Below, piece after piece: positions 1,937 to 55,092 of a stretch of 62,653 nucleotides of DNA. This DNA comes from Traorella massiliensis (GTDB lineage: Bacteria > Bacillota_I > Bacilli_A > Erysipelotrichales > Erysipelotrichaceae). Both the position numbers and the translations under genes were made by a program. The first letter of the stretch is position 1. Each line of letters begins with the position of its first letter. A model generated the notes under the pieces. It made no database searches. It saw only the letters and a program-made list of their open reading frames with translations, and had not been told where the DNA came from. The DNA lies in NCBI RefSeq assembly GCF_900104665.1, contig NZ_LT629969.1, positions 527,560 to 590,212 of the forward strand, written 5' to 3'.

Positions 1937-4186
1937 ATGAAAAAGTTTGCTTTAGCTTTTCTTTCTCTGGTAATGGCGTTCGCATTAATGATACCAGTGA
2001 AAGCGGCTACCAATGTAGCAAAAATAGGCAATGTTGAGTATGCAACATTAGAAGATGCTGTTGATGCAGTAGAATCTACATCTTTTTCAACGCATCAAGC
2101 ACCTGAAACTCCTACAACAATTACCTTGCTTGAAGATACAAATGCAGGAATTGATATTGGAAAATCAGGAGTAGAATTAAAGAATGTTATCCTGGATTTA
2201 AATGGACATACCCTAACATTAGGGCCTGCGGTAGGTTCGACAGGAACAGAAACAAATGGGTTAAGAGTATTATCTTATAGCAAAATCGAAATTAAAAACG
2301 GTACCATTACTAGTAATGATATGTTGAATGATGCCGGTGGATATGTGAAATTCATGTTGGTTAATTATGGTACAATGATTTTGGATAATATTAAAGTTGT
2401 TCCTGGAAATAAGGTTGAGGGAACTATCAACAATCGTGGTGATTTGACATTAAAAGGTAATACTGAAGTACCAACAGCACCAGTTCCTTTTTATGGTGAT
2501 GTAAAGTTTGCTATTACGAATGATGTTTATAATGCACATTATACTAATTTTGATGCTAGATTAACAGTAGATTCTCCAAATGTAAAGGTTGGAGTTGTAC
2601 AAGTTGAAAGATATCCAACAAATAGAAATGGCAATGAAGGGGCTGTTGTCTTAGATATTTCAGCAGGAACGTTTGATAAAGTAATTGATGATGGTTACGA
2701 AATAGTCCCTGTAGAAGGAAATGTTTCCGGAGGTACTTTCTCTGTACCATTAGATGAAATATATTATGCTGATCAGGCAAATGTGACTGTAAAACTTAAC
2801 GAAGATGTTCAAAAAGATGTTGTAATTCCTGCAGGTGCAACTGTAACGTTAGATCTTAATGGACAAACATTAACAAATGTAACATCCGATACGATTACTG
2901 TGGAAAAGGGTGCAACTTTAAAAGTTATTGGAGAAGGAACTGTTGATAATAAGAGCAATGGAAGAGCTGCAGTATTCAATAATGGAAATGTTACATTAAA
3001 TGGCGGTACTTATGATCGTACATCTGAGAGTGGTGAAAGTGCTGATATCAGTGGTGGTAATAGCTGGTATACGATTTGTAATCATGGTACTATGACGATC
3101 AATAAAGGCGTAACTGTTAAAAATACTGGAAGCTTCAGTAGTATGATTGAAAATGGATATTACAGTTATAATAGTTCTAATACAAGAAATGGACATAATC
3201 CAAGTGTAAATGAGGCAAATCCTTCATTAAATATCAATGGTGGTGAATTTGTTGGGGGCCTAAATACTGTTAAGAATGATGACGGTGGTGTTCTTACAAT
3301 TAAAGATGGAAACTTCACAAATACGACTCAGGCAGCAGTTTTGAATTGGAATAAAGCTACGATTGAAGGTGGATATTTTGAAACTGATGCGGAAAACTGT
3401 ATTTTGAATGGTGCTTCTTCTATGAACTCTTCTAAAAATAATTTAGGGGAGTTAACGATTAGCGGTGGTACGTTTAATAGTAATGGAATTACTGTTTTAA
3501 ATTACTTCACATTCACAGGTGATGAATTAATTAATATAAAAGGTGGTACTTATCTTTCTGATGGTGTTGCTGATAATAGTGTAACTCAGTATTTTCCTGA
3601 AAACTCTAATTTACAGGTAAATCCTGATACTGGTGAAGTAGGTGTTTTCCATACAGTAACATTTGTTATTGATAATGAAGAAAAAGATGTGCTTGTAAAA
3701 GAAAACGGATTAGCTGAGGCTCTAGAAGCTCCAGTCAAAGAAGGTTATACATTTGTTGGATGGTTTAATGGAGATAAAGAATATGATTTCAATACTCCAG
3801 TAACAGCTGATATTACATTAACTGCTAAATATGAAGTAACAAAATATACAGTATCATTCAGTGATGGTGTAGAAAGCCAGGAAGTAGAACATGGAAAGAC
3901 AGCTGTAAAACCAGCTGATCCAAAAAAGGAAGGCTATACATTTATTGGATGGTATCTTGGAGATGAGGAATATGATTTCAGTACACCGGTAACGAGTGAT
4001 TTAGAATTGACAGCTAAATTTGAAAAGAATAATGTTCCTGTTGATCCTGAAAAGCCAGCAGATGATAATACAACTGAAACACCAAATACGAATGGTATGA
4101 GCTTTGTTGCTTGTTATGGTATGATGTTCGTGTTAAGTGGTATGATTCTGCTTGTATTAGCGAAAAAGAGAAGTTTGAACAAATAA
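1937..4186 (+). CDS. Secreted surface protein with beta-helix-like body and two InlB-type repeats
   Basis: This 749-residue protein starts with a typical signal peptide (MKKFALAFLSLVMAFALM, cleavage near VKA-A). Residues 50-560 are rich in repeated G-G-x-F/Y and N-G-T turns, the pattern of right-handed beta-helix or pectate-lyase-like adhesins. Residues about 573-635 and 636-697 are two Listeria-Bacteroides (InlB B) repeats, each with EGYTF-(V/I)GW and a closing LTAK. The C-terminus has a Pro/Thr spacer, TPNTNG, a hydrophobic segment and a KKRSLNK tail. That is sortase-signal architecture, but canonical LPXTG is absent. The start follows an excellent AAGGAGG site. The likely role is surface adhesion or interaction; the ligand is unknown. 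Confidence 0.75.
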   Translation: MKKFALAFLSLVMAFALMIPVKAATNVAKIGNVEYATLEDAVDAVESTSFSTHQAPETPTTITLLEDTNAGIDIGKSGVELKNVILDLNGHTLTLGPAVGSTGTETNGLRVLSYSKIEIKNGTITSNDMLNDAGGYVKFMLVNYGTMILDNIKVVPGNKVEGTINNRGDLTLKGNTEVPTAPVPFYGDVKFAITNDVYNAHYTNFDARLTVDSPNVKVGVVQVERYPTNRNGNEGAVVLDISAGTFDKVIDDGYEIVPVEGNVSGGTFSVPLDEIYYADQANVTVKLNEDVQKDVVIPAGATVTLDLNGQTLTNVTSDTITVEKGATLKVIGEGTVDNKSNGRAAVFNNGNVTLNGGTYDRTSESGESADISGGNSWYTICNHGTMTINKGVTVKNTGSFSSMIENGYYSYNSSNTRNGHNPSVNEANPSLNINGGEFVGGLNTVKNDDGGVLTIKDGNFTNTTQAAVLNWNKATIEGGYFETDAENCILNGASSMNSSKNNLGELTISGGTFNSNGITVLNYFTFTGDELINIKGGTYLSDGVADNSVTQYFPENSNLQVNPDTGEVGVFHTVTFVIDNEEKDVLVKENGLAEALEAPVKEGYTFVGWFNGDKEYDFNTPVTADITLTAKYEVTKYTVSFSDGVESQEVEHGKTAVKPADPKKEGYTFIGWYLGDEEYDFSTPVTSDLELTAKFEKNNVPVDPEKPADDNTTETPNTNGMSFVACYGMMFVLSGMILLVLAKKRSLNK

Positions 4187-4282: not shown

Positions 4283-4316
4283 TATAATTTTAAAAGTTGA
4301 TATTTATATAAGGATG

Positions 4317-4340
4317 AATTGTGATATAATTATCATGATT
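4317..4340 (+). promoter_or_regulatory. Extended -10 promoter overlapped by an imperfect palindrome, hydrogenase operon
   Basis: TGATATAAT at 4322-4330 reads as an extended -10 box (TG-n-TATAAT). A 24-base imperfect palindrome is centred on it: arms AATTGTGATA (4317-4326) and TATCATGATT (4331-4340) agree at 8 of 10 positions. A repressor bound here would block the promoter. The half-site TTGTGA recalls Rex-type redox operators, but the right half departs from that consensus, so the regulator is not identified. Confidence 0.45.
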
Positions 4341-4360: not shown

Positions 4361-5818
4361 ATGAGTTTATTTACACATGAAGCACGTCAATTTAAATTTG
4401 ATGTTCTGAGAGAAGTTGCAAGACGCTCATTCGAGGGAAAGATCAATGAAGATACGGTTGATGAGATTGCAACTTTCCTGATCCCCACTAATCATGCAGA
4501 TTTCAGATGCTGCGTGTATAAGGAAAGAGAAATTATAAGAGAAAGAACCCGTTTGGCATTAGGAAAAAAGCCAAATACAATAAGAAAAGATAACTATTCT
4601 CCTAAACAGATCGTTCATGTTTTGGAAGCTGCTTGTGACGGCTGCAGTATTCATAAGATCATGGTAACAGATAACTGTCGCAAATGTATGGCTAAAAGCT
4701 GTCAGGCTTCTTGTAAGTTTGATGCGATGAAAATGGGTAGCGACAAAGCCTATATTGATTATGATAAATGTAAATCATGCGGTGCTTGCGTAAAAGCATG
4801 TCCATTTAATGCGATCGTTCAAAGCGAGCGTCCATGTGTTCGCTCTTGTCCGGTAAATGCTATTTCGATGGATGAAAATGATTTGTGTGTCATTAATGAG
4901 GAAAACTGTATTAGCTGTGGTGCTTGTCAGGCTGGTTGCCCATTTGGAGCAATTGAAGATATTTCATTTATGACTCAGGTAACAGATGATCTTCGCCGTG
5001 GAGAAAAAGTAGTAGCTATTGTTGCGCCATCTATTCAAGGACAGATGGGACAGGCAACTTTGCCACAGATTTTAACTGCAATTTTAGAAGTAGGTTTTGC
5101 AGATGTTTATGAAGCAGCGGTAGGTGCTGATGCGGTAGCTGATTTTGAAGCTAAAGAGCTGTTGAAACATAAAGCAGAAGGTATTAAGATGACAACTTCC
5201 TGCTGTCCAGCGTTTGTAAATATGGCCCGTATTCATTTTCCAACCGTTTATGAAAAGAATGTCAGCAAAGTAGTTTCACCAATGGAGGCAATTGCCCGTC
5301 AAATTAAAAGTAAACAGGATTGCAAGATTGCCTTTATTGGCCCTTGTGTAGCGAAAAAGAATGAAGCTTTGAATGATTGGTCAGTTGTTGATTATGTCTT
5401 AACATTTGAAGAGATTGCAGCTATGATCATTGCGAAAGAGATTGCGGTAGAAAATCTTGAACCGAGCGATAAAAATATAGCTAGTATCCATGGTAAGAAT
5501 TTTGCTGTTGGTGGTGGTGTCAGCAAGGCAGTTTCTGAATCTTTAAAAGAAAATAATCTGGAAGCAGTGACGAGCAAATATGCAGATGGTGCTGCTGAAT
5601 GTAAGATGAATCTATTGCTGATGAAGCTTGGCAGATTTAATGAAGATATTTTAGAAGGCATGGCTTGTGTTGGCGGCTGTGTCAGTGGTCCTGCGACTAT
5701 AGAGTCGCCGGTAAAGGTGAAGCAGTTAATGGCAAAAGAAAATGCTGCCATTAAAGATAAGACCATTCAATCTGTTCTTGAAGAGGTTGATTTTAGTCAG
5801 GTTAATATGCATCGATAG
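4361..5818 (+). CDS. Group B monomeric [FeFe] hydrogenase
   Basis: This 485-residue iron-sulfur enzyme is predicted to interconvert protons and H2 with ferredoxin-type electrons. The N-terminal FRCCVYKERE (about 48-57) and the CxxC-rich region (95-120) match group B enzymes. Two 4Fe-4S ferredoxin motifs follow (C137-C147 and C183-C193). The H-cluster motifs are L1 TSCCP (279-283), L2 PCVAKKNE (328-335) and L3 MACVGGC (434-440), so all four cluster cysteines and the proton-relay Cys are present. The physiological role of group B enzymes is poorly defined. It is the first gene of an operon with a sensory hydrogenase and is 11 bases from the next gene. The maturases HydE, HydF and HydG are not in the window. 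Confidence 0.88.
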   Translation: MSLFTHEARQFKFDVLREVARRSFEGKINEDTVDEIATFLIPTNHADFRCCVYKEREIIRERTRLALGKKPNTIRKDNYSPKQIVHVLEAACDGCSIHKIMVTDNCRKCMAKSCQASCKFDAMKMGSDKAYIDYDKCKSCGACVKACPFNAIVQSERPCVRSCPVNAISMDENDLCVINEENCISCGACQAGCPFGAIEDISFMTQVTDDLRRGEKVVAIVAPSIQGQMGQATLPQILTAILEVGFADVYEAAVGADAVADFEAKELLKHKAEGIKMTTSCCPAFVNMARIHFPTVYEKNVSKVVSPMEAIARQIKSKQDCKIAFIGPCVAKKNEALNDWSVVDYVLTFEEIAAMIIAKEIAVENLEPSDKNIASIHGKNFAVGGGVSKAVSESLKENNLEAVTSKYADGAAECKMNLLLMKLGRFNEDILEGMACVGGCVSGPATIESPVKVKQLMAKENAAIKDKTIQSVLEEVDFSQVNMHR

Positions 5819-5829
5819 GAGGGAAAATT

Positions 5830-6072
5830 ATGCATACTATTGAAATCTGCGTTGGAAGCAGCTGCTTTGTGAAAGGAAGCAATGAACTGGTGGAGAAACT
5901 TAAGAAATATCTTGAAGATAATCATCTTGAGGATAAAGTTCAATTGAAGGGTGCTTTCTGTATGGGACAATGTGCAAAAGGACTGGGAGTTCGAGTTGAT
6001 GGCAAACTTCTAGAAGGTGTCACACTTTCCAACGCTATTGATTTAATTGAAATTGAATTAAATTCTCTATGA
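5830..6072 (+). CDS. Thioredoxin-fold [2Fe-2S] ferredoxin (NuoE/HydC-like)
   Basis: This 80-residue protein has the four-cysteine pattern of thioredoxin-like 2Fe-2S ferredoxins: ICVGSSC near the N-terminus and FCMGQC around residue 48. It should carry electrons between the hydrogenases of this operon or from them to another partner. It starts after a GGAGGG site and its TGA overlaps the next ATG (ATGA, 6069-6072), indicating translational coupling to the sensory hydrogenase. It is only the cluster domain, without the longer N-terminus of complex I NuoE. Confidence 0.8.
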   Translation: MHTIEICVGSSCFVKGSNELVEKLKKYLEDNHLEDKVQLKGAFCMGQCAKGLGVRVDGKLLEGVTLSNAIDLIEIELNSL

Positions 6073-7745
6073 AGCCTTTAATTACACTTGTTGAATATAA
6101 CTGTAAAAGTTGTTTAAAGTGTGTACGCAATTGTCCGACAAAATCAATCCGTTTTGAGAATAATCATCCTTATATTGTAGAAGAAGAATGTATTCATTGT
6201 GGAAATTGTTATTTATGCTGTCCACAGTCGGCGAAAGAAATCAGAAGTGATCTTGATCTTGTGAAAAGCTGGTTATCTGCGAAAGAAGAAGTTGTCATTT
6301 CTATTGCTCCAAGTTATCAGGTGATTTGGGATAACTATGCAAAATTAAAGCAAAATCTATATAAGCTTGGGTTTAGTGCGGTTGAAGAAACAGCTAGAGG
6401 AGCTTCTGTTGTTTCAGCACAGTATGGTGCATTGATGCATGAAAAAAAGATGAATAATATCATTGAAACCTGCTGTCCAACAGTTGTTGAGATGATTGAA
6501 AAAGAATATCCGGAACTAGTATCTTGTCTAGCACCGGTAGCTTCGCCGATGATCGTACATGGAAGAATGTTGAAAAAGAAATATCCAAATGCTAAGATTG
6601 TTTTCTTATCTCCATGTATTGCGAAGCAGCATGAAGTGATGGATGAGCGTTTTAGTGATGCAGTGGATGCAGTAATTTCAATGCCGGATATGGATGAATG
6701 GATCATGAATAGTAATGAGTCTATTTCATATGAAATGGATGAGGAGGAAAATATTGCGCGAATTTATCCTATTAGTGGTGGAATCATTAAAACGATCGAT
6801 GATTTTAATGGATATAAGAGTCTGGCTGTTGATGGTATCAGAAGATGCCGGGCTGTTTTAGAATCGATTAAGAATGGACATTTAAACGGATATTTTTTTG
6901 AATTAAATGCTTGTGAAGGTGGCTGTTTAGGTGGCCCTTATTTATTAGCTTATAAGGATAACGAATGGCTTGCACAAAGCAGAATCAGTGAATATGAGAA
7001 CGGAACTAAGATAAAAGCAGATAAGGCTGAATTTACGTCAGCACAGTTTAAAGATAAATCTGTAAAAAAACCTGTTTTCTCTGAGTATCAGATTCATGAA
7101 GTACTTTGCAGTATGGGAAAAGCTGATCGTTCGAAACGACTGGATTGTGGAGCTTGTGGATATGATACATGCCGTGCAAAAGCCATTGCTGTATTAGAGG
7201 GCAAAAGCGATCCTAAGCATTGTCTGCCATATGCTTTGGAAAATGCGCAATCAGTTTCTAATCTTGTCATTCAGCATTCGCCAAATGGTATTATCGTGCT
7301 TGATTCTGACAATAAGATCAAAGAAATCAATCCAAGTGCCGTTCGGCTTTTAGGTATTCAAAATTATAGTGTTAAGGGCTTTGAAATAGAAGCAATTTTA
7401 CCTAGTGAGCAGCTGATGGATATTCTTCATCGAAAGGTTCAGGATGTTTCTTATATGGTGGAAGAAATTCATGGTGGTGAAAAGGTTTGCAATATTGCCG
7501 CACTGCCTTTAGGTGATGAACAGTCATATGTACTGATTCTGATGGATCTGACCAATCAGCGTGAGCAGGAAAAGAAAATGAAGAAGTTGCGTAAGGAAAC
7601 AATAGAATCTACACAAAAGGTCATTGATAAACAAATGCGTGTTGTTCAAGAAATCGCATCCTTATTAGGTGAGACGACAGCTGAGACGAAAGTCGTGCTG
7701 ACAAAGCTTAATAAGGCAATTGATGGAGATGATCTGAATGGATAA
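6069..7745 (+). CDS. Sensory [FeFe] hydrogenase with PAS domain (HydS-like)
   Basis: The 558 residues comprise two 4Fe-4S ferredoxin motifs (12-22 and 41-51), a hydrogenase H-cluster domain (about 70-310), an extra iron-sulfur module (DCGACGYDTC, 359-368), a PAS domain (about 397-510) and a C-terminal helical, probably coiled-coil tail. H-cluster motifs are ETCCP (133-137), SPCIAKQHE (181-189) and ACEGGC (281-286). This is the layout of group C putative H2 sensors. It has no kinase or cyclase domain, so the output is most likely the phosphatase encoded immediately after, whose ATG overlaps this gene's end by 8 bases. Function is inferred from the family; no sensing has been shown here. Confidence 0.85.
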   Translation: MKPLITLVEYNCKSCLKCVRNCPTKSIRFENNHPYIVEEECIHCGNCYLCCPQSAKEIRSDLDLVKSWLSAKEEVVISIAPSYQVIWDNYAKLKQNLYKLGFSAVEETARGASVVSAQYGALMHEKKMNNIIETCCPTVVEMIEKEYPELVSCLAPVASPMIVHGRMLKKKYPNAKIVFLSPCIAKQHEVMDERFSDAVDAVISMPDMDEWIMNSNESISYEMDEEENIARIYPISGGIIKTIDDFNGYKSLAVDGIRRCRAVLESIKNGHLNGYFFELNACEGGCLGGPYLLAYKDNEWLAQSRISEYENGTKIKADKAEFTSAQFKDKSVKKPVFSEYQIHEVLCSMGKADRSKRLDCGACGYDTCRAKAIAVLEGKSDPKHCLPYALENAQSVSNLVIQHSPNGIIVLDSDNKIKEINPSAVRLLGIQNYSVKGFEIEAILPSEQLMDILHRKVQDVSYMVEEIHGGEKVCNIAALPLGDEQSYVLILMDLTNQREQEKKMKKLRKETIESTQKVIDKQMRVVQEIASLLGETTAETKVVLTKLNKAIDGDDLNG

Positions 7746-8919
7746 GGTACATGTTGAAACCTATTATGCTTCTTTAAATAAAAAGAATGAAGAGTTATGT
7801 GGAGATAAAGTTAAGATCTTACGTAATGAAAAAAGCTGCATCGTTGTTTTAAGCGATGGTCTAGGAAGTGGTGTAAAAGCCAATGTGCTAGCAACACTAA
7901 CGAGTGAAATTATTGCGACAATGTTGAATGAAGGTGCAGAATTAAGTGATGCCATTGAAACGATCATCAATACATTGCCAGTATGCAGTGAGCGTAAGGT
8001 TGCTTACTCAACCTTTACGGTTTGTCAGGTTTTTTATGACGGACGTGTATTTATGGCAGAATATGATGGTCCGGAAGCTATCGTTTTAAGAAATGGCAGG
8101 GAGTTAAAACTTGAAAAAGAAATACTTTATCAGCAGGATAAAAAAGTAAAAACTTGCAGTTTTACATGTGAACCTAATGACCGTATCATTTTTTTCTCCG
8201 ATGGTATTGTTCATGCGGGGATTGGAAGCATTTTAAATTTAGGATGGGATCATAAAGAAATCGTACAACATATTGAAACAATGCATCGTTCAGCAGATAC
8301 AGCTCGTAAAACATGTATGAATTTGCTTTTAGCTGTAAATGATCTTTATCAAGGATTGCCTGGAGATGATTCAACGGTCGCTGTTGTTAAGATGCTGCCA
8401 CCTAAACAAAGCATCGTAGTAGTAGGGCCACCAGCTAGCAAAGAAGATGACAATGATGTCGTAATGAAGCTGATGAAGGCTACTGGAAAGAAGATTGTTT
8501 GTGGTGGTAGTACTTCACAGATGGTTGCACGTGTTTTAAATGAAGAAATTCGTATGCCGGATGCATTGGATTTTCTTGGAGATATTCCGCCTATTGCTTT
8601 TATTGATGGCATTGATCTTGTGACTGAAGGTGCTATTACTTTAAAAAAAGTATTAGAGTATTTAAGGGAATGTAACGCTTCTAGAGAATATCTTAATAAC
8701 TTTATGGATGGTGAAAAAGGAGATGGTGCATTTCTTCTTACTCATATGCTGATTTGTGATTGTTCTGCTATCCATTTTATCCAAGGAAAAGCTGACAATA
8801 TTGCTCATGCTTCGATTAACTATTCACCGATTTCATTAGGTAAAAAGATAAGAACGGTAGAAAAAATTGGTGATGAACTGAAGAAATTAGGAAAAATTGT
8901 TACATACGAGCAAATATAA
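7738..8919 (+). CDS. SpoIIE/PP2C-type serine phosphatase of the hydrogenase operon
   Basis: This 393-residue protein has an N-terminal PP2C-like domain (about 1-220) with the metal-binding motifs LSDGLGSG, FFSDGIVHAG and GDDSTVAVV. These match SpoIIE/RsbU-type phosphatases that dephosphorylate Ser/Thr proteins. The C-terminal 170 residues (from SIVVVGPPASK) form an additional conserved-looking domain that I cannot name. Overlap with the sensory hydrogenase gene points to a two-protein H2-signalling pair in which H-cluster/PAS state controls phosphatase activity. No anti-sigma or anti-anti-sigma partner is nearby, so its substrate is unknown. Confidence 0.8.
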   Translation: MDKVHVETYYASLNKKNEELCGDKVKILRNEKSCIVVLSDGLGSGVKANVLATLTSEIIATMLNEGAELSDAIETIINTLPVCSERKVAYSTFTVCQVFYDGRVFMAEYDGPEAIVLRNGRELKLEKEILYQQDKKVKTCSFTCEPNDRIIFFSDGIVHAGIGSILNLGWDHKEIVQHIETMHRSADTARKTCMNLLLAVNDLYQGLPGDDSTVAVVKMLPPKQSIVVVGPPASKEDDNDVVMKLMKATGKKIVCGGSTSQMVARVLNEEIRMPDALDFLGDIPPIAFIDGIDLVTEGAITLKKVLEYLRECNASREYLNNFMDGEKGDGAFLLTHMLICDCSAIHFIQGKADNIAHASINYSPISLGKKIRTVEKIGDELKKLGKIVTYEQI

Positions 8920-8940
8920 GCAAAACATGACAAAATCTTT

Positions 8941-8966
8941 CATCTCTATTTTTTAAAATAGAGATG
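8941..8966. repeat. Perfect 12-base hairpin between phosphatase gene and unknown ORF
   Basis: CATCTCTATTTT (8941-8952) and AAAATAGAGATG (8955-8966) are perfect inverse complements with a 2-base gap. There is no T-run after it on the plus strand, and its right arm almost touches the start of the next gene (8976). It may limit read-through or ribosome access rather than act as a classical terminator. Confidence 0.45.
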
Positions 8967-8975
8967 GGTGATTGA

Positions 8976-9350
8976 ATGAGTTATACATGTATCGCCTGTA
9001 GTGAAACCACTATGGGCATTTTTTTAGGAAAAGAAAAAGCTTTATTTTTACTTTTTGAAATGAGTGAAGAACAAAGAGATGTTTTCTTATATTCTTTTGT
9101 GAGTTATGAAATGATTTCTAAGTGTCTTCATTTTTATACAAAGGAATATTTAGAAATATTTGAAAATAAAATATATTATAAAAATCATTGGCTTGCTTTT
9201 TATAAACATAAGATAGAAACAGATGATATTTATACAAATATTTTATTTGATTATATGAAAAGAGTGCATCGTATCTGGTGCTGTATGGATGAGAGCGGTA
9301 AAGTGGTATGGATAAAGACTTGTAAAGTCATAGAAAATTGTGTAAAATAA
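8976..9350 (+). CDS. Hypothetical protein, 124 residues
   Basis: I do not recognise this protein. It is small, without signal peptide or membrane segment, rich in Phe, Tyr and His, and carries six cysteines, including the N-terminal pair CIAC and the doublet WCCMDES near residue 106. The Cys content and the position 57 bases after the hydrogenase operon hint at a redox or metal role, but that is a guess. The start has only a weak ribosome site (GGTGATTG) overlapping the preceding hairpin, so expression may be low or controlled by that hairpin. It reads in the same direction as the operon and as the yneF-like gene behind it. Confidence 0.5.
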   Translation: MSYTCIACSETTMGIFLGKEKALFLLFEMSEEQRDVFLYSFVSYEMISKCLHFYTKEYLEIFENKIYYKNHWLAFYKHKIETDDIYTNILFDYMKRVHRIWCCMDESGKVVWIKTCKVIENCVK

Positions 9351-9371
9351 GATAGGTAACGGAGGTGTATT

Positions 9372-9590
9372 ATGGGAGATATTTGGACATCTATTCTGTA
9401 TACATTGATTGGTTTGGTTATTGGTGGAGGTTTAGGATTCTATTTCACCAGAAGATATTTTATCAAACAGCTAAAAGAACATCCTCCAATCAATGAAAAA
9501 ATGATTCGTGCAATGTTCTTGCAGATGGGAAGAAAACCATCAGAAGCACAGATTCGTCAGATCATGAAATCAATGGAACAAGCAAGATAA
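9372..9590 (+). CDS. YneF-family (UPF0154) small membrane protein
   Basis: This 72-residue protein has an N-terminal membrane helix (ILYTLIGLVIGGGLGFYF), a short basic stretch (RRYFIKQ) and a cytosolic helix with PPINEKMIRAMFLQMGRKPS, the hallmark of the UPF0154/YneF family found across Bacillota. The function is unknown. It has its own GGAGGTG ribosome site and is followed directly by a terminator. Confidence 0.85.
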   Translation: MGDIWTSILYTLIGLVIGGGLGFYFTRRYFIKQLKEHPPINEKMIRAMFLQMGRKPSEAQIRQIMKSMEQAR

Positions 9591-9612
9591 AGACCGAAAG
9601 GTCTTTTTTCTT
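9591..9612 (+). terminator. Terminator of the yneF-like gene
   Basis: AGACC-GAAA-GGTCT (9591-9604) with a stable tetraloop is followed by TTTTTTC. It begins immediately after the stop codon. Confidence 0.8.
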
Positions 9613-9620
9613 AATATATA

Positions 9621-9653
9621 AAATCCCATCTGTTTAGATTTCAGATGGGATTT
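9621..9653 (-). terminator. Terminator of the flavodoxin gene
   Basis: The 12-base arms AAATCCCATCTG (9621-9632) and CAGATGGGATTT (9642-9653) form a strong hairpin just beyond the stop of the minus-strand flavodoxin gene. On that strand it is followed by a T-rich tail. With the preceding hairpin it insulates two convergent genes. Confidence 0.7.
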
Positions 9654-9656
9654 AGA

Positions 9657-10166
9657 TTAGATTTTATTAACTATTAAAGAAATCCATTCTTTTGCATGAT
9701 TACGATCATCATCATTAGGATGATCAAGAGCTTCATCAAAATTTTCAATACTAACTTTTAATCTTGCATCATCTGGATGTTCTCTCATCATTTGAACATA
9801 TCTGTCTTTTACCTGTAAGGGCATTTTTCCTTGACAGAAAAAATATCCTAATATTTGATTTGAATCATCAATGTGCTCTTTTACTCTCGAAAACAAAGTC
9901 TGATAATATTTCTCGTCTTTTCCATAACCAGCTGTTCCAAAATAGGCAATTTTTTTATTTTTTAACTTTTGAATAGAATCAAGGATCTTGCTATCTGCAT
10001 TTCCTTTATCTGTCCATGAACCAATAATATAAAGATCAGCTTCAATCGTTTCTTGTTTAGGTGAACCGAAATAGACGATATCTTTATCTTTTAGCTGTTC
10101 ATAAATTGCCTTGGCAATTATCTCGGTATTTTTTGTCTTACTGACATAAATGATAGCTATTTTCAT
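9657..10166 (-). CDS. Flavodoxin-family protein
   Basis: This 169-residue protein has the flavodoxin FMN-phosphate loop at its N-terminus (YVSKTKNTE) and later flavin-contact strands (YIIGSWTDKG and IAYFGTAGYG). It should be a small FMN electron carrier or an FMN-dependent reductase subunit. The C-terminal part (PLQVKDRYVQMMREHPDD) is typical of a subfamily that includes BilS, a partner of bilirubin reductase. No BilR-like gene is present here, so I do not assign that role. It lies 13 bases after plsY on the same strand and is probably co-transcribed. Confidence 0.75.
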   Translation of the reverse strand: MKIAIIYVSKTKNTEIIAKAIYEQLKDKDIVYFGSPKQETIEADLYIIGSWTDKGNADSKILDSIQKLKNKKIAYFGTAGYGKDEKYYQTLFSRVKEHIDDSNQILGYFFCQGKMPLQVKDRYVQMMREHPDDARLKVSIENFDEALDHPNDDDRNHAKEWISLIVNKI

Positions 10167-10179
10167 ATTGAACTCCTTT

Positions 10180-10779
10180 TTAAAGCCATTTAACTTTATT
10201 TTCTGTATGATTTCTGATTCTTTGAATATTCGGAATATGACGATAAATAATGAGAATATCTAATAAGACACTGGCAGTAAGTACCAAGGCAGAAGCCTGA
10301 ATGATAAGCAGCGAAATCGTGCTGGCAACTGCTGCAACCATGCTAGACAGAGAAACCATTTTAGAAATAAACAAAGTAATAAGGAAGGCAGCTAAAGGTA
10401 ATACAAAGCATAGCCAGTTGTGAGTTGTGAAAATTGCAATGGCTAGTAGAAAACCAAACATGCTGGCAGCCGCTTTTCCACCCTTAAAATGAGCAAATAT
10501 CGGAAAGCAATGTCCTACGCATACTGCAAGTCCGCACCATATAGAAGCATTTTGGGAATAAATTGATACGATACCAACAGGGATAAAAGCTTTTAATGCA
10601 TCTAATATAATCACGCTGATGCCGGCTTTTTTACCTAAGACTCTTCCGGCATTGGTTCCTCCTAAATTGCCTGACCCAAACTGGCGTATATCGGTGTGAT
10701 AGAAAACCTTTCCGATTACTAAGGCAAAGGGAATGGATCCCAATAAATATCCAAATAAAACTGATAAGAAGTAAATCAT
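10180..10779 (-). CDS. plsY: Glycerol-3-phosphate acyltransferase PlsY
   Basis: This 199-residue integral membrane protein has the PlsY motifs GSGNLGGTNAGRVLGKKAG (about 37-55) and HCFPIFAHFKGGKAAA (about 89-104). It transfers an acyl group from acyl-phosphate to glycerol-3-phosphate in the first step of phospholipid synthesis. Length and five-helix hydrophobicity are normal. It diverges from parE, as in many Bacillota, with a roughly 100-base shared promoter region. The ribosome site AAAAGGGGTG precedes the ATG. Confidence 0.95.
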   Translation of the reverse strand: MIYFLSVLFGYLLGSIPFALVIGKVFYHTDIRQFGSGNLGGTNAGRVLGKKAGISVIILDALKAFIPVGIVSIYSQNASIWCGLAVCVGHCFPIFAHFKGGKAAASMFGFLLAIAIFTTHNWLCFVLPLAAFLITLFISKMVSLSSMVAAVASTISLLIIQASALVLTASVLLDILIIYRHIPNIQRIRNHTENKVKWL

Positions 10780-10816
10780 TGCATCACCCCTTTTCTATTG
10801 TATCATTTTTCATTAA

Positions 10817-15264
<4,448 letters not shown>

Positions 15265-15266
<2 letters not shown>

Positions 15267-15293
15267 ACTGCTCATCGAGCAGTTTTTTCTTTT
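15265..15293 (+). terminator. Terminator of parE-parC
   Basis: AACTGCTC-ATC-GAGCAGTT (15266-15284) is followed by six T residues and a T-rich tail, and begins at the parC stop codon. Confidence 0.85.
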
Positions 15294-15346
15294 CTCATGG
15301 AAATATAGAGTGAAATGGTTTATAATTAAAATAAGGAAGTGATAGT

Positions 15347-15589
15347 ATGAACAAACGTGTCATAGCAGGATGTGTACTTATCTCAGCTGCAGCTATTGGC
15401 TGCATTTGGGTAATAAAAGAATATAAAGAGATGAAAATGATGAAAAACGATCTGGAGAATCATCCTTTATATCGTGCTGAAAAACAGGCTGTGCGTTTAA
15501 AAAATAGAAAAGATGTGAAAACAGTAAAGGTATCTGAAAATGCATCGTTAAAAAGCAAGCTTTTAGCATGCTATGAAATTTTGAGGTAA
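15347..15589 (+). CDS. Small single-pass membrane protein, unknown function
   Basis: This 80-residue protein has one N-terminal membrane helix (VIAGCVLISAAAIGCIWVI) and a basic, helical cytosolic tail. No family is recognised. It has a GGAAGTG ribosome site and ends 4 bases before the downstream permease gene, so the two are very likely one transcript. It could be an accessory subunit of that permease, but only proximity supports this. Confidence 0.6.
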   Translation: MNKRVIAGCVLISAAAIGCIWVIKEYKEMKMMKNDLENHPLYRAEKQAVRLKNRKDVKTVKVSENASLKSKLLACYEILR

Positions 15590-15593
15590 CTCT

Positions 15594-16757
15594 ATGAATT
15601 TCTTAAAAAATCATGAAACAAGACGTATTTTATTTATTATAACATTTACAGTTTTATTGACAGCTGCTGTTTTTCATATGGATGTGATCATGAATACGGT
15701 TGATGTGATCCTTTCTATTACATATCCATTTATCGTTGGAGGTATCATTGCCTTTATTCTTAATGTCGTACTGCGTCAGCTAGAATTAAAACTGTTTAAA
15801 AATGTATCTTTCCAAACAAAAAAAGGCCGTTCATTCAAACGTCCGATATGTTTAGTACTTACCATTATTATTGTTCTTTTTGTGTTGTTTGTGGTAGCCT
15901 TTTTATTAGTTCCCCGCTTTGTAGAGGCGATTATTGCGATCGTGGAACAACTAAGTATCTTCATACCACAGGCACAGCAGTTTTTTGAAAAACTGCTTGC
16001 AGATAATGAGGATGCTGTTCGTTTTATTGAATCACTTAATATAGATTATGAGGCCATGTTTAGACAGGTGACAAATTTTCTTAGCCGCTCTGCAAGTGAT
16101 CTGATTTCAAATGCATTCAATATAGTATCTTCATTTGCTGGAACCCTGTTCTCATTCTTTATTTCTTTTATCTTTGCGACTTATTTATTGATTCAAAAAG
16201 AAAAACTTTCTTTACAGCTAAGATTAGTGATGAAAGCGGTATTGTCTGAAAGAAGACAACAACAGGTTGAACGTGTTTTGGCATTGTCTTTTGATACATT
16301 TACTAATTTTGTAAGTGGTCAGGGATTAGAAGCAGTTGTACTGGGGACACTCGTGGGGTCTTGCTGCTGGATTTTTGGGCTGTCTTATTCTTCAGTTGTT
16401 GGTGTCATTGCTGCGCTTTGTTCATTCATACCGATGTTTGGCAGCATGATCGCACTTGTTGTCGGAACTTTGATTCAGTTAATTGTTTCACCATATCAAG
16501 CGCTGTTCTTCCTTTTTATGATGGTAATTATCCAACAGATCGATGGCAATCTGATTTATCCTCATATCATGGGAAATAGAATCGGCTTACCTCCAATGTA
16601 TGTGCTGATTGCTTTCTCTGTAGGAGGAAGTCTGATGGGATTATTTGGTATGCTGCTGTTCATCCCTATTACAAGTATTTTATATGACTTATTCCGTGAT
16701 TGGGTATATGAGCGTATTGCGAAAAAAGAAAAAGATTCAAAACAGGAAATAGTTTAA
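15594..16757 (+). CDS. AI-2E (DUF20/PerM) family membrane permease
   Basis: This 387-residue protein has about eight hydrophobic segments and the family hallmark near the C-terminus (QQIDGNLIYPHIMGNRIGLP). A large amphipathic middle (about 120-200) is typical. The family includes TqsA (AI-2 export) and Na+/Li+-H+ antiporter-like members, so the substrate cannot be read from sequence. It follows the small membrane protein by 4 bases and ends before a bidirectional terminator. Confidence 0.85.
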   Translation: MNFLKNHETRRILFIITFTVLLTAAVFHMDVIMNTVDVILSITYPFIVGGIIAFILNVVLRQLELKLFKNVSFQTKKGRSFKRPICLVLTIIIVLFVLFVVAFLLVPRFVEAIIAIVEQLSIFIPQAQQFFEKLLADNEDAVRFIESLNIDYEAMFRQVTNFLSRSASDLISNAFNIVSSFAGTLFSFFISFIFATYLLIQKEKLSLQLRLVMKAVLSERRQQQVERVLALSFDTFTNFVSGQGLEAVVLGTLVGSCCWIFGLSYSSVVGVIAALCSFIPMFGSMIALVVGTLIQLIVSPYQALFFLFMMVIIQQIDGNLIYPHIMGNRIGLPPMYVLIAFSVGGSLMGLFGMLLFIPITSILYDLFRDWVYERIAKKEKDSKQEIV

Positions 16758-52497: not shown

Positions 52498-55092
52498 ATG
52501 TTAACTAAAACAACAAAACAAATTGAAGAAGCGCTAGATACCAGTTCTCAAAGTGGTCTGACTAGTGCGCAGGTTTCAAAAAGGCTTGAAGAAAATGGCT
52601 ACAATGAACTTGCTGAACAGAAAAAGGAAAGTCTTTTAATTAAGTTCTTAAATCAGTTCAAGGACACACTGGTGATTATTCTGCTGATTGCTGCTGCTGT
52701 TTCAATTGCGGTAGAACCAACTGAATGGATTGACAGTGTTATTATTTTGATAGTCGTTTTGATCAATGCTATTTTAGGTGTTGTACAGGAAAGCAAGGCT
52801 GAAAAAAGCTTGGAAGCATTACAGAAGTTAAGTGCACCAACAGCAAAGGTCATTCGTAACAATCAGCCAATGGTCGTTGATGCGAAGGAGCTTGTCGTTG
52901 GTGATTTGCTGATTCTGGAGGCTGGTGACTGTGTTGGTAGTGATGCACGTATTATTGAAAGCCACAATTTACAGATAGATGAATCAGCCCTAACAGGTGA
53001 AAGTGTACCTGTTCATAAATCAGCTGATCCGCTGGAAAGTGAAGATATGCCATTAGGTGACCGTGTGAATATGGCTTATCAGTCATGTAATGTCACTTAT
53101 GGACGTGGACGTGCTATTGTTACATCAACAGGTATGCAGAATGAAGTTGGTAAGATTGCTGATATGCTGATGAACGAAAAGCAAGAACTGACACCATTGC
53201 AGGTAAAACTGAATGAAATCGGTAAAATGATTGGTGTGATGTGTATCGCTATCTGTATCATCGTATTTGCGATGGAATATTTCGGTGGTCTGGAATCGCT
53301 TTTAGAAGCATTCAAGACAAGTATTGCATTAGCAGTTGCTGCTATTCCTGAAGGACTTGCAACGATTGTTACGATCGTACTGGCATTATCTGTACAGAAG
53401 ATGGTAAAGCATCATGCAATCGTAAGAAGACTGCCAGCAGTTGAAACACTGGGAAGCACTTCAATTGTTTGCTCTGATAAGACAGGAACTTTGACTCAGA
53501 ATAAGATGACAGTTCTTGAGGTTTATAGCAAAGAAGGCTTAAAGTCTTTAGATGATGCGAATAGTGAAGATGAAATCAAAATGTTGAACTACTTCACATT
53601 GTGCAGTGATGCGCAGATCAAAGATGGAAAAGAAATTGGCGATCCAACTGAAATAGCATTAGTTGCTGCTTCTTTGAAAAAGAATTATTCTAAGGAAGAA
53701 CTTGCTAAAACATACAAACGTGGAGAAGAACTTAGCTTTGACTCTGATCGTAAGATGATGAGCGTTTTTTATGAAGTTGACGGTGAAATCATTTCAATCA
53801 CTAAGGGTGGCTGTGATGTTGTCTTAAACAAATGTGATAATGCAGATGTTGATAAGATCATGGAAGCGAATAACCTGATGGCAGACAAAGCATTACGTGT
53901 ATTAGCTGTAGCTATCCGTAAATGGGATAAGATGCCAGAAACGATTGATTTTGACACAGTTGAAAATCACTTAACTTTTGTTGGTCTGGTAGGTATGATC
54001 GATCCACCTCGTCCAGAGGCTAAAGATGCAATTGCTACTGCTAAAAAAGCAGGTGTGCGTACGATCATGATTACAGGTGACCACATCAATACTGCAAGTG
54101 CTATTGCAAAAGAACTTGGTATTCTGACTGAAGGAACAAGAGCTGTCAGTGGTACGGAGTTAAACAATATGAGTGATGAAGAGCTGATGGAGCACATTGA
54201 AGAATTCTCTGTTTATGCACGTGTAGCTCCTGAACATAAGGTAAGAATTGTCAATGCATGGCAGTCAAAAGGTCATATCGTTGCAATGACAGGTGATGGG
54301 GTTAATGATGCTCCTGCCCTGAAAGCAGCAGATATCGGTTGTGCAATGGGTATTACAGGTACAGATGTAGCAAAGAGTGCTGCAGCTATGGTATTGACAG
54401 ATGATAATTTTGCGACGATCATTACATCGATTCGTGAAGGCCGTGGTATCTTTGATAACATTCAAAAGGATGTTCAGTATCTTTTATCAAGCAATATCGG
54501 CGAAGTATTAACGATTTTCCTTGCATCTTTGATTTCAGTAGTAATACCTGCAAGCGGATTTGGTGTTCCATTGTTACCAATCCATCTATTGTGGGTAAAC
54601 TTAATTACAGACTCACTTCCTGCTTTTGCATTAGGTCTTGAACCAACAGAAGCTAATATCATGGATCGTCAGCCTCGTAAGAAAGATGAAGATTTCTTCT
54701 CACATGGCCTGATGTTCACAATTGTCTGGCAAGGTATCATGGTTGGTCTTTTAACACTTCTCTCTTATGCATATGGTGAAACTTTCAATCACGAAACAGG
54801 TATGACAATGGCATTTGTTACGTTATCTGCAGCTCAGCTTTTCCATTCTTTCAATGTGAAGAGTCATGCTAGTATTTTCTCTAAACAGATTTTCAATAAC
54901 AAATATCTTTGGGGAAGTGCATTATTAGGTGCAGCATTACAGATCATGATCATTAATGTACCTTTCTTTGCTGATATCTTTGATCTAGTACCACTTTCTC
55001 CAACATGTGCTCTAGTATCAGTAGGATTGGCATTCTCAACGATCATCATTGTAGAAATCGTTAAATTAATTAAAAGAATCACTAGTAAATAA
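52498..55092 (+). CDS. P2-type cation ATPase, probable Mn2+ (or Ca2+) exporter
   Basis: This 864-residue P-type ATPase resembles SERCA/PMCA-type pumps. It has an N-terminal cation ATPase domain (TSAQVSKRLEENGYNELAEQ), actuator motif LTGESVPVHKS, TM4 ion motif AVAAIPEGLATIV, phosphorylation site CSDKTGTLTQNKM, and hinge MTGDGVNDAPALKAADIG. Annotation by family alone would be Ca2+ transport. Control by an upstream Mn2+ riboswitch argues for Mn2+ export. The ATG at 52498 now has only the weak site CCAGGA supplied by the IS110 end. The original strong site is on the far side of the element. The coding sequence is intact. Confidence 0.9.
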   Translation: MLTKTTKQIEEALDTSSQSGLTSAQVSKRLEENGYNELAEQKKESLLIKFLNQFKDTLVIILLIAAAVSIAVEPTEWIDSVIILIVVLINAILGVVQESKAEKSLEALQKLSAPTAKVIRNNQPMVVDAKELVVGDLLILEAGDCVGSDARIIESHNLQIDESALTGESVPVHKSADPLESEDMPLGDRVNMAYQSCNVTYGRGRAIVTSTGMQNEVGKIADMLMNEKQELTPLQVKLNEIGKMIGVMCIAICIIVFAMEYFGGLESLLEAFKTSIALAVAAIPEGLATIVTIVLALSVQKMVKHHAIVRRLPAVETLGSTSIVCSDKTGTLTQNKMTVLEVYSKEGLKSLDDANSEDEIKMLNYFTLCSDAQIKDGKEIGDPTEIALVAASLKKNYSKEELAKTYKRGEELSFDSDRKMMSVFYEVDGEIISITKGGCDVVLNKCDNADVDKIMEANNLMADKALRVLAVAIRKWDKMPETIDFDTVENHLTFVGLVGMIDPPRPEAKDAIATAKKAGVRTIMITGDHINTASAIAKELGILTEGTRAVSGTELNNMSDEELMEHIEEFSVYARVAPEHKVRIVNAWQSKGHIVAMTGDGVNDAPALKAADIGCAMGITGTDVAKSAAAMVLTDDNFATIITSIREGRGIFDNIQKDVQYLLSSNIGEVLTIFLASLISVVIPASGFGVPLLPIHLLWVNLITDSLPAFALGLEPTEANIMDRQPRKKDEDFFSHGLMFTIVWQGIMVGLLTLLSYAYGETFNHETGMTMAFVTLSAAQLFHSFNVKSHASIFSKQIFNNKYLWGSALLGAALQIMIINVPFFADIFDLVPLSPTCALVSVGLAFSTIIIVEIVKLIKRITSK

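Follow-up and report, generated by a model that had tools for sequence, protein, structure and literature searches.

A putative sensory [FeFe]-hydrogenase paired with a PP2C-family phosphatase in an hfsABCD-type operon of Traorella massiliensis

Introduction

It has long been asked how fermenting bacteria of the gut and rumen sense H2 and switch between making H2 and making ethanol, and the group C [FeFe]-hydrogenases (HydS) are still 'putative' sensors. The best described relevant operon is hfsABCD. In Thermoanaerobacterium saccharolyticum, ethanol, adhE and NADH-ADH activity all go up when hfsA or hfsB is deleted, whereas deletion of hfsC, hfsD or the whole operon brings no rise in ethanol (PMC5707799). 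The activity that changes is NADH-ADH and not NADH-ALDH (PMC5707799), and the same paper refers to Zheng et al. for a kinase. High ethanol is restored in T. thermosaccharolyticum by hfsD alone, with hfsABC left out (PMC11837493); hfsB/C are disrupted in evolved strains, and HfsABC has been suggested to form a functional hydrogenase (PMC13277313). When Ruminococcus albus grows together with an H2-consuming partner, its HydS/AdhE/hydrogenase cluster is repressed 111-fold, and a signal route from H2 via PAS to a phosphatase has been put forward (PMC6776011). At the residue level, the equivalents of CpI M353 and M497 are replaced in sensory [FeFe]-hydrogenases (PMC10055695, PMC8163306), and Cys299 is usually lost, being kept in 17% of sensory sequences (PMC10055695).

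Here we describe a locus of the hfsABCD and R. albus hydS type in Traorella massiliensis (Erysipelotrichaceae), in which a sensor hydrogenase, a phosphatase and a ferredoxin-linked hydrogenase share one operon. It lies in a stretch of 62,653 nucleotides (hereafter the window; RefSeq assembly GCF_900104665.1, contig NZ_LT629969.1, positions 527,560 to 590,212), which we compared with 296 Bacilli genomes, reading 40 HydS loci at wider range. H2 sensing via a phosphatase is already published as an idea; new here are comparative data in favour of a signalling core of three genes and sequence-based evidence that argues against a general sigma-factor switch. We consider it reasonably probable that the locus is a sensor–phosphatase module co-transcribed with a fermentative H2-producing enzyme, with HydS setting phosphatase activity.

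Results

A four-gene operon with probable transcript ends

Re-reading of the open reading frames bore out, to the base, the four-gene structure drawn in an earlier note on this DNA: plus-strand frames at 4361-5818, 5830-6072, 6069-7745 and 7738-8919, with intergenic gaps of 11, -4 and -8 bases. Profile searches agreed with all four of its family assignments (TIGR04105; PF01257; PF02906 with PF04060 and PF13188; PF07228), and all four genes are present at 94-98% identity in the closest named record, an uncultured Traorella MAG (locus L007). A probable extended -10 promoter precedes the first gene (4303-4330, plus strand; TGTGATATAAT), with 10/12 consensus matches and a TG before the -10, although promoter-like sites as a class were not above chance. 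The string TGTGATATAATT is also found upstream of the same first gene in L007, L104 and L073. Downstream of the phosphatase gene, a terminator scan placed two hairpins on the plus strand (8939-9017), at 8939-8968 and at 8994-9017, the latter followed by ATTTTTTT; the region has a minimum free energy of -33.6 kcal/mol (z -4.88), and the pair is likely to mark the operon end. The repeated extended -10 and the trailing hairpins are thus consistent with a single transcript for the four genes. The best candidate for a Rex operator upstream of 4361 matched 10/14 positions, the same as the typical shuffled value and so not above chance.

Several neighbouring features are recorded here. The second terminator-like hairpin sits within the 5' end of a small frame of 124 codons (8976-9350) that follows the phosphatase gene, belongs to no known family and is conserved in L073 and L104. 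Directly upstream of the operon, a 749-aa protein (1937-4186) carries Listeria-Bacteroides (Flg_new) repeats, and its start and end resemble those of a secreted, wall-attached protein. An IS1634-family transposase (105-1748) lies near the operon, and a BilS-family flavodoxin (NF045594 over cut-off) is encoded on the minus strand at 9657-10166.

The phosphatase is co-inherited with HydS

Full-length HydS occurs in 39 of the 296 genomes and this phosphatase family in 40, with 39 genomes common to both; the lone phosphatase without HydS comes from a 3.2 kb contig (genome G358) holding that gene and a group B hydrogenase gene but no HydS. Co-occurrence gave a Fisher p of 4.7e-48 among related genomes, uncorrected for ancestry, and given this kinship the spread of the pair over ten families is the safer statement. 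In all 40 loci the phosphatase is the next gene after HydS. This obligate pairing, seen in 39/39 HydS genomes, supports the earlier proposal that the phosphatase is the natural output of HydS. Mirror-tree distance correlation was only slightly better for HydS and the phosphatase (0.80) than for HydS and the group B enzyme HydB (0.74), with no clear separation.

On the other side of HydS, a gene for an 80-aa thioredoxin-like [2Fe-2S] protein (5830-6072, plus strand; PF01257, 37.0 bits against a cut-off of 24.8), whose four cysteines are invariant in 32 relatives, lies directly upstream in 36/40 loci. Because it precedes HydS so regularly and the phosphatase always follows, the core is 2Fe-2S protein, HydS and PP2C phosphatase, and we propose that the 2Fe-2S protein belongs to the sensor unit.

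HydS has the features of a group C sensor and a highly conserved tail

The window's HydS (558 aa; 6069-7745, plus strand) is a putative sensory [FeFe]-hydrogenase of group C (M2f type). It matches the H-cluster domain PF02906 at 158.8 bits and carries two 4Fe-4S motifs, the PF04060 FeS module and, after that module, a PAS domain (PF13188, residues 400-441, 27.6 bits against a cut-off of 21.8); family searches thereby sustained its earlier description as an H-cluster, an extra FeS module and PAS with no output domain. The H-cluster ligands Cys136, Cys183, Cys282 and Cys286, together with Lys186 and Glu189, are invariant in 40/40 sequences; the N-terminal 4Fe-4S cysteines (12/15/18/22 and 41/44/47/51) and those of a C-terminal CX2CX4CX16C motif (Cys360/363/368/385) are also invariant. 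At the positions of CpI M353 and M497 the window's HydS has Ser181 and Asn280, and the 40 sequences have Gly/Ser/Thr and Ser/Asn, one Leu excepted, replacements that would be expected of sensory enzymes. Ligands, FeS motifs, PAS and these replacements together place the protein in group C. Five apparent cases of selenocysteine, with TGA inside HydS (L014, L020, L022, L025 and L027), proved to be the normal C-terminal stop, as did a TAA case in L021.

At the CpI C299 position 30 of the 40 sequences have Cys, 6 have Ala and 4 have Ser. The residue there is Cys135 in the window's HydS, which could therefore also be a turnover enzyme. On such a reading, HydS and the 2Fe-2S protein would mainly be a low-rate electron-handling hydrogenase, the phenotype would reflect redox or H2 cycling, and the phosphatase would be a minor or unrelated regulator. 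The T. thermosaccharolyticum phenotype restored by hfsD alone (PMC11837493) indicates that phenotypes can reflect hydrogenase dose and not phosphatase signalling, and the suggested HfsABC hydrogenase (PMC13277313) points the same way. We nevertheless regard this account as quite unlikely: HydS and the phosphatase family are strictly inherited together, other residues stand in for M353 and M497, as they do in sensory enzymes, and the C-terminal tail of HydS is better conserved than its catalytic domain.

That helical tail (residues 516-552; 7614-7724, plus strand) contains the most conserved 30-residue stretch of the protein, with a mean entropy over the 40 sequences of 0.82; the H-domain averages 1.93 and PAS 2.35. 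It matches no Pfam family over cut-off, and an AlphaFold2 model places a long helix at residues 495-533 and a second at 537-553, with lowered confidence. Its conservation suggests that the tail is likely a docking element for the phosphatase.

A predicted PP2C phosphatase with an additional domain

The fourth gene (7738-8919, plus strand) encodes 393 aa, of which residues 1-222 form the PP2C domain (PF07228, 60.2 bits, cut-off 25). The metal-binding residues Asp23, Asp40, Asp155, Asp210 and Asp211 are invariant in 38/38 sequences, and the AlphaFold2 model has a PP2C fold over residues 1-224 (5ucg, Z 24.6, rmsd 2.6, 216 aligned); fold and metal ligands identify the product as a predicted PP2C/SpoIIE-family phosphatase. 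Residues 224-393 (8407-8916, plus strand) form a mostly confidently modelled C-terminal domain of no known family, without a Pfam match, in which Gly230, Gly256, Gly257, Pro284, Pro285, Asp293, Glu297, Gly298, Gly350, Asn354 and His357 are invariant. Profile matches to PDB sequences were confined to the phosphatase domain, and in a fold search PP2C matches filled the list, masking any for residues 224-393.

The group B hydrogenase is an exchangeable neighbour

The first gene (4361-5818, plus strand) encodes a 485-aa group B [FeFe]-hydrogenase of the HfsD/HydB type, matching TIGR04105 at 534.5 bits against a cut-off of 450; Cys281, Cys282, Cys329, Cys436 and Cys440 are kept in 26/26 relatives. 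The earlier note held the role of this group to be unsettled, a view overtaken by the demonstration that in gut bacteria group B enzymes are linked to ferredoxin and produce H2 during fermentation (PMC12578642). Of the 40 HydS loci, 8, all within the window's family, have the group B gene upstream and 19 have it downstream; NuoE-NuoF genes take its place in 5, and the other 8 showed neither neighbour. Some of the 296 genomes carry a group B gene and no HydS. The enzyme is thus an optional, exchangeable neighbour or client of the signalling core. Such variation in position and presence makes it likelier to be a co-regulated target than a signal source, so that of the two roles first suggested for it the former gains and the latter loses ground, and it is not an inseparable member of the module.

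Candidate targets of the phosphatase

SpoIIE and RsbU suggest one substrate, a STAS anti-anti-sigma protein opposed by an RsbW/SpoIIAB-like kinase. The earlier statement that no anti-sigma partner is present is true of the window, where profile coordinates show no STAS or HATPase_c_2 match, but not of the source genome, which has SpoIIAA/SpoIIAB-type genes (C9:1.08 Mb) and a further SpoIIAB-like protein. That protein belongs to a second hydrogenase operon on contig C6, which holds two of the genome's four PF02906 proteins. This operon (locus L113, C6:139000-158000, ORFs 8041-15945) forms a further sensor set of different build, in the order NuoE, DRTGG-like, SpoIIAB-like HATPase, HydS, small protein, PHP, HATPase, NuoF, HydA; its HydS (398 aa) is group D-like, without PAS or tail. 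A histidine-kinase-like ATPase similarly stands beside a group D enzyme upstream of the bifurcating hydrogenase in T. mathranii (PMC8163306).

Partner switching could thus perhaps draw on the SpoIIAB-like protein of the C6 operon, which is of hydABC type, or on SpoIIAA itself, the genome having one STAS protein. The C6-type ATPase is also enriched in phosphatase genomes (15/40 compared with 38/256 others; p 0.0014, uncorrected for ancestry). Against this, it is absent from 25/40 phosphatase genomes and so fails as a universal opposing kinase; of 27 phosphatase-bearing genomes, 20 have no STAS protein and 17 no HATPase_c_2 match over cut-off, no such gene lies within the operon, and a conserved STAS substrate with its RsbW/SpoIIAB kinase was not found. 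These absences make a SpoIIE/RsbU partner switch unlikely as the shared function, though it could have been added in some species, and as the explanation of this locus we rate it highly improbable. Nor did other kinases qualify as universal partners, Hanks kinases occurring in only 24/27 and HPr kinase in only 12/27 phosphatase genomes; every kinase or substrate family tested was missing from some phosphatase-bearing genomes.

The neighbourhood of the sensor module points elsewhere. Rex recurs in 12/40 sensor loci and AdhE in 11/40. A subfamily of APH-fold kinases has 15 clear members in the 296 genomes; in 9/9 genomes that also have the sensor module the kinase gene stands immediately upstream of that module, and in 6/6 that lack HydS it follows AdhE at a distance of 12-32 bp, counted between profile matches. 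This recurrence marks out alcohol metabolism as a candidate target: phosphate would be added to AdhE, or to a protein that acts on AdhE, in some lineages by the APH-fold kinase, and an H2-controlled phosphatase would remove it. The selective change in NADH-ADH in T. saccharolyticum, which suggests post-transcriptional control (PMC5707799), fits as well. Many APH-family kinases, however, use small-molecule substrates, and neither the window's genome nor most phosphatase genomes have this subfamily; we judge this account unlikely. Its more specific form, in which HydS would bind the phosphatase via the C-terminal helix, AdhE or a close regulator would be dephosphorylated under H2 control, and no sigma-factor switch would take part, is a long shot. 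This possibly AdhE-linked kinase, encoded after adhE where there is no HydS and elsewhere in front of the HydS module, is seen in loci L162-L167, L088 and L092. A model built from relatives found no AdhE in the rest of the window, and an 864-aa frame at 52498 is a P-type ATPase.

Discussion

From the gene structure, obligate pairing, conserved H-cluster ligands, intact phosphatase metal residues and conserved tail, we infer how a module in which HydS sets phosphatase activity could work. HydS would bind H2 at its H-cluster, or read electron balance with the 2Fe-2S protein as partner, and its state would pass through the CX2CX4CX16C FeS module and PAS to the conserved C-terminal helix. The helix would contact the phosphatase and set its activity, and the phosphatase would dephosphorylate a protein controlling fermentative electron disposal, such as the hydrogenases, AdhE or their regulation. 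As for the sign of control, the rise in ethanol in hfsA and hfsB mutants, set against its absence in hfsC, hfsD and whole-operon mutants, fits a sensor restraining its output; HydS and the 2Fe-2S protein may do the same here, if T. saccharolyticum is a guide. The strict pairing, the HydS tail, the extra phosphatase domain and the lack of a general STAS partner lead to specific biochemical tests on the three-protein core.

Among known systems, SpoIIE, RsbU and RsbP share the PP2C fold and metal-binding Asp residues with the window's phosphatase, whereas here the regulatory PAS is on a separate protein, there is an extra C-terminal domain and no STAS substrate is conserved. Thermotoga maritima HydS, also group C, shares the N-terminal FeS clusters, H-domain, C-terminal FeS cluster, PAS and M353/M497 replacements (PMC10055695), but has Ala at the Cys299 position where the window's HydS has Cys, and the text describing it mentions no phosphatase partner. 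Closer is the R. albus cluster, which likewise sets a group C PAS hydrogenase and a putative Ser/Thr phosphatase beside a ferredoxin hydrogenase, with H2 feedback proposed (PMC6776011); it comprises eight genes, including AdhE and other regulators, and its hydrogenase is assigned to group A1, whereas the window's operon has no AdhE. Closest in composition is hfsABCD of T. saccharolyticum, also four genes, with the PAS-hydrogenase HfsB, the serine-phosphatase-like HfsC and the ferredoxin-linked HfsD (PMC5707799, PMC11837493), and with HfsA taken, from gene order and not from its sequence, to be the 2Fe-2S protein. The group B gene is first in the window's operon but last in hfsABCD, an order that also exists in other Bacilli loci.
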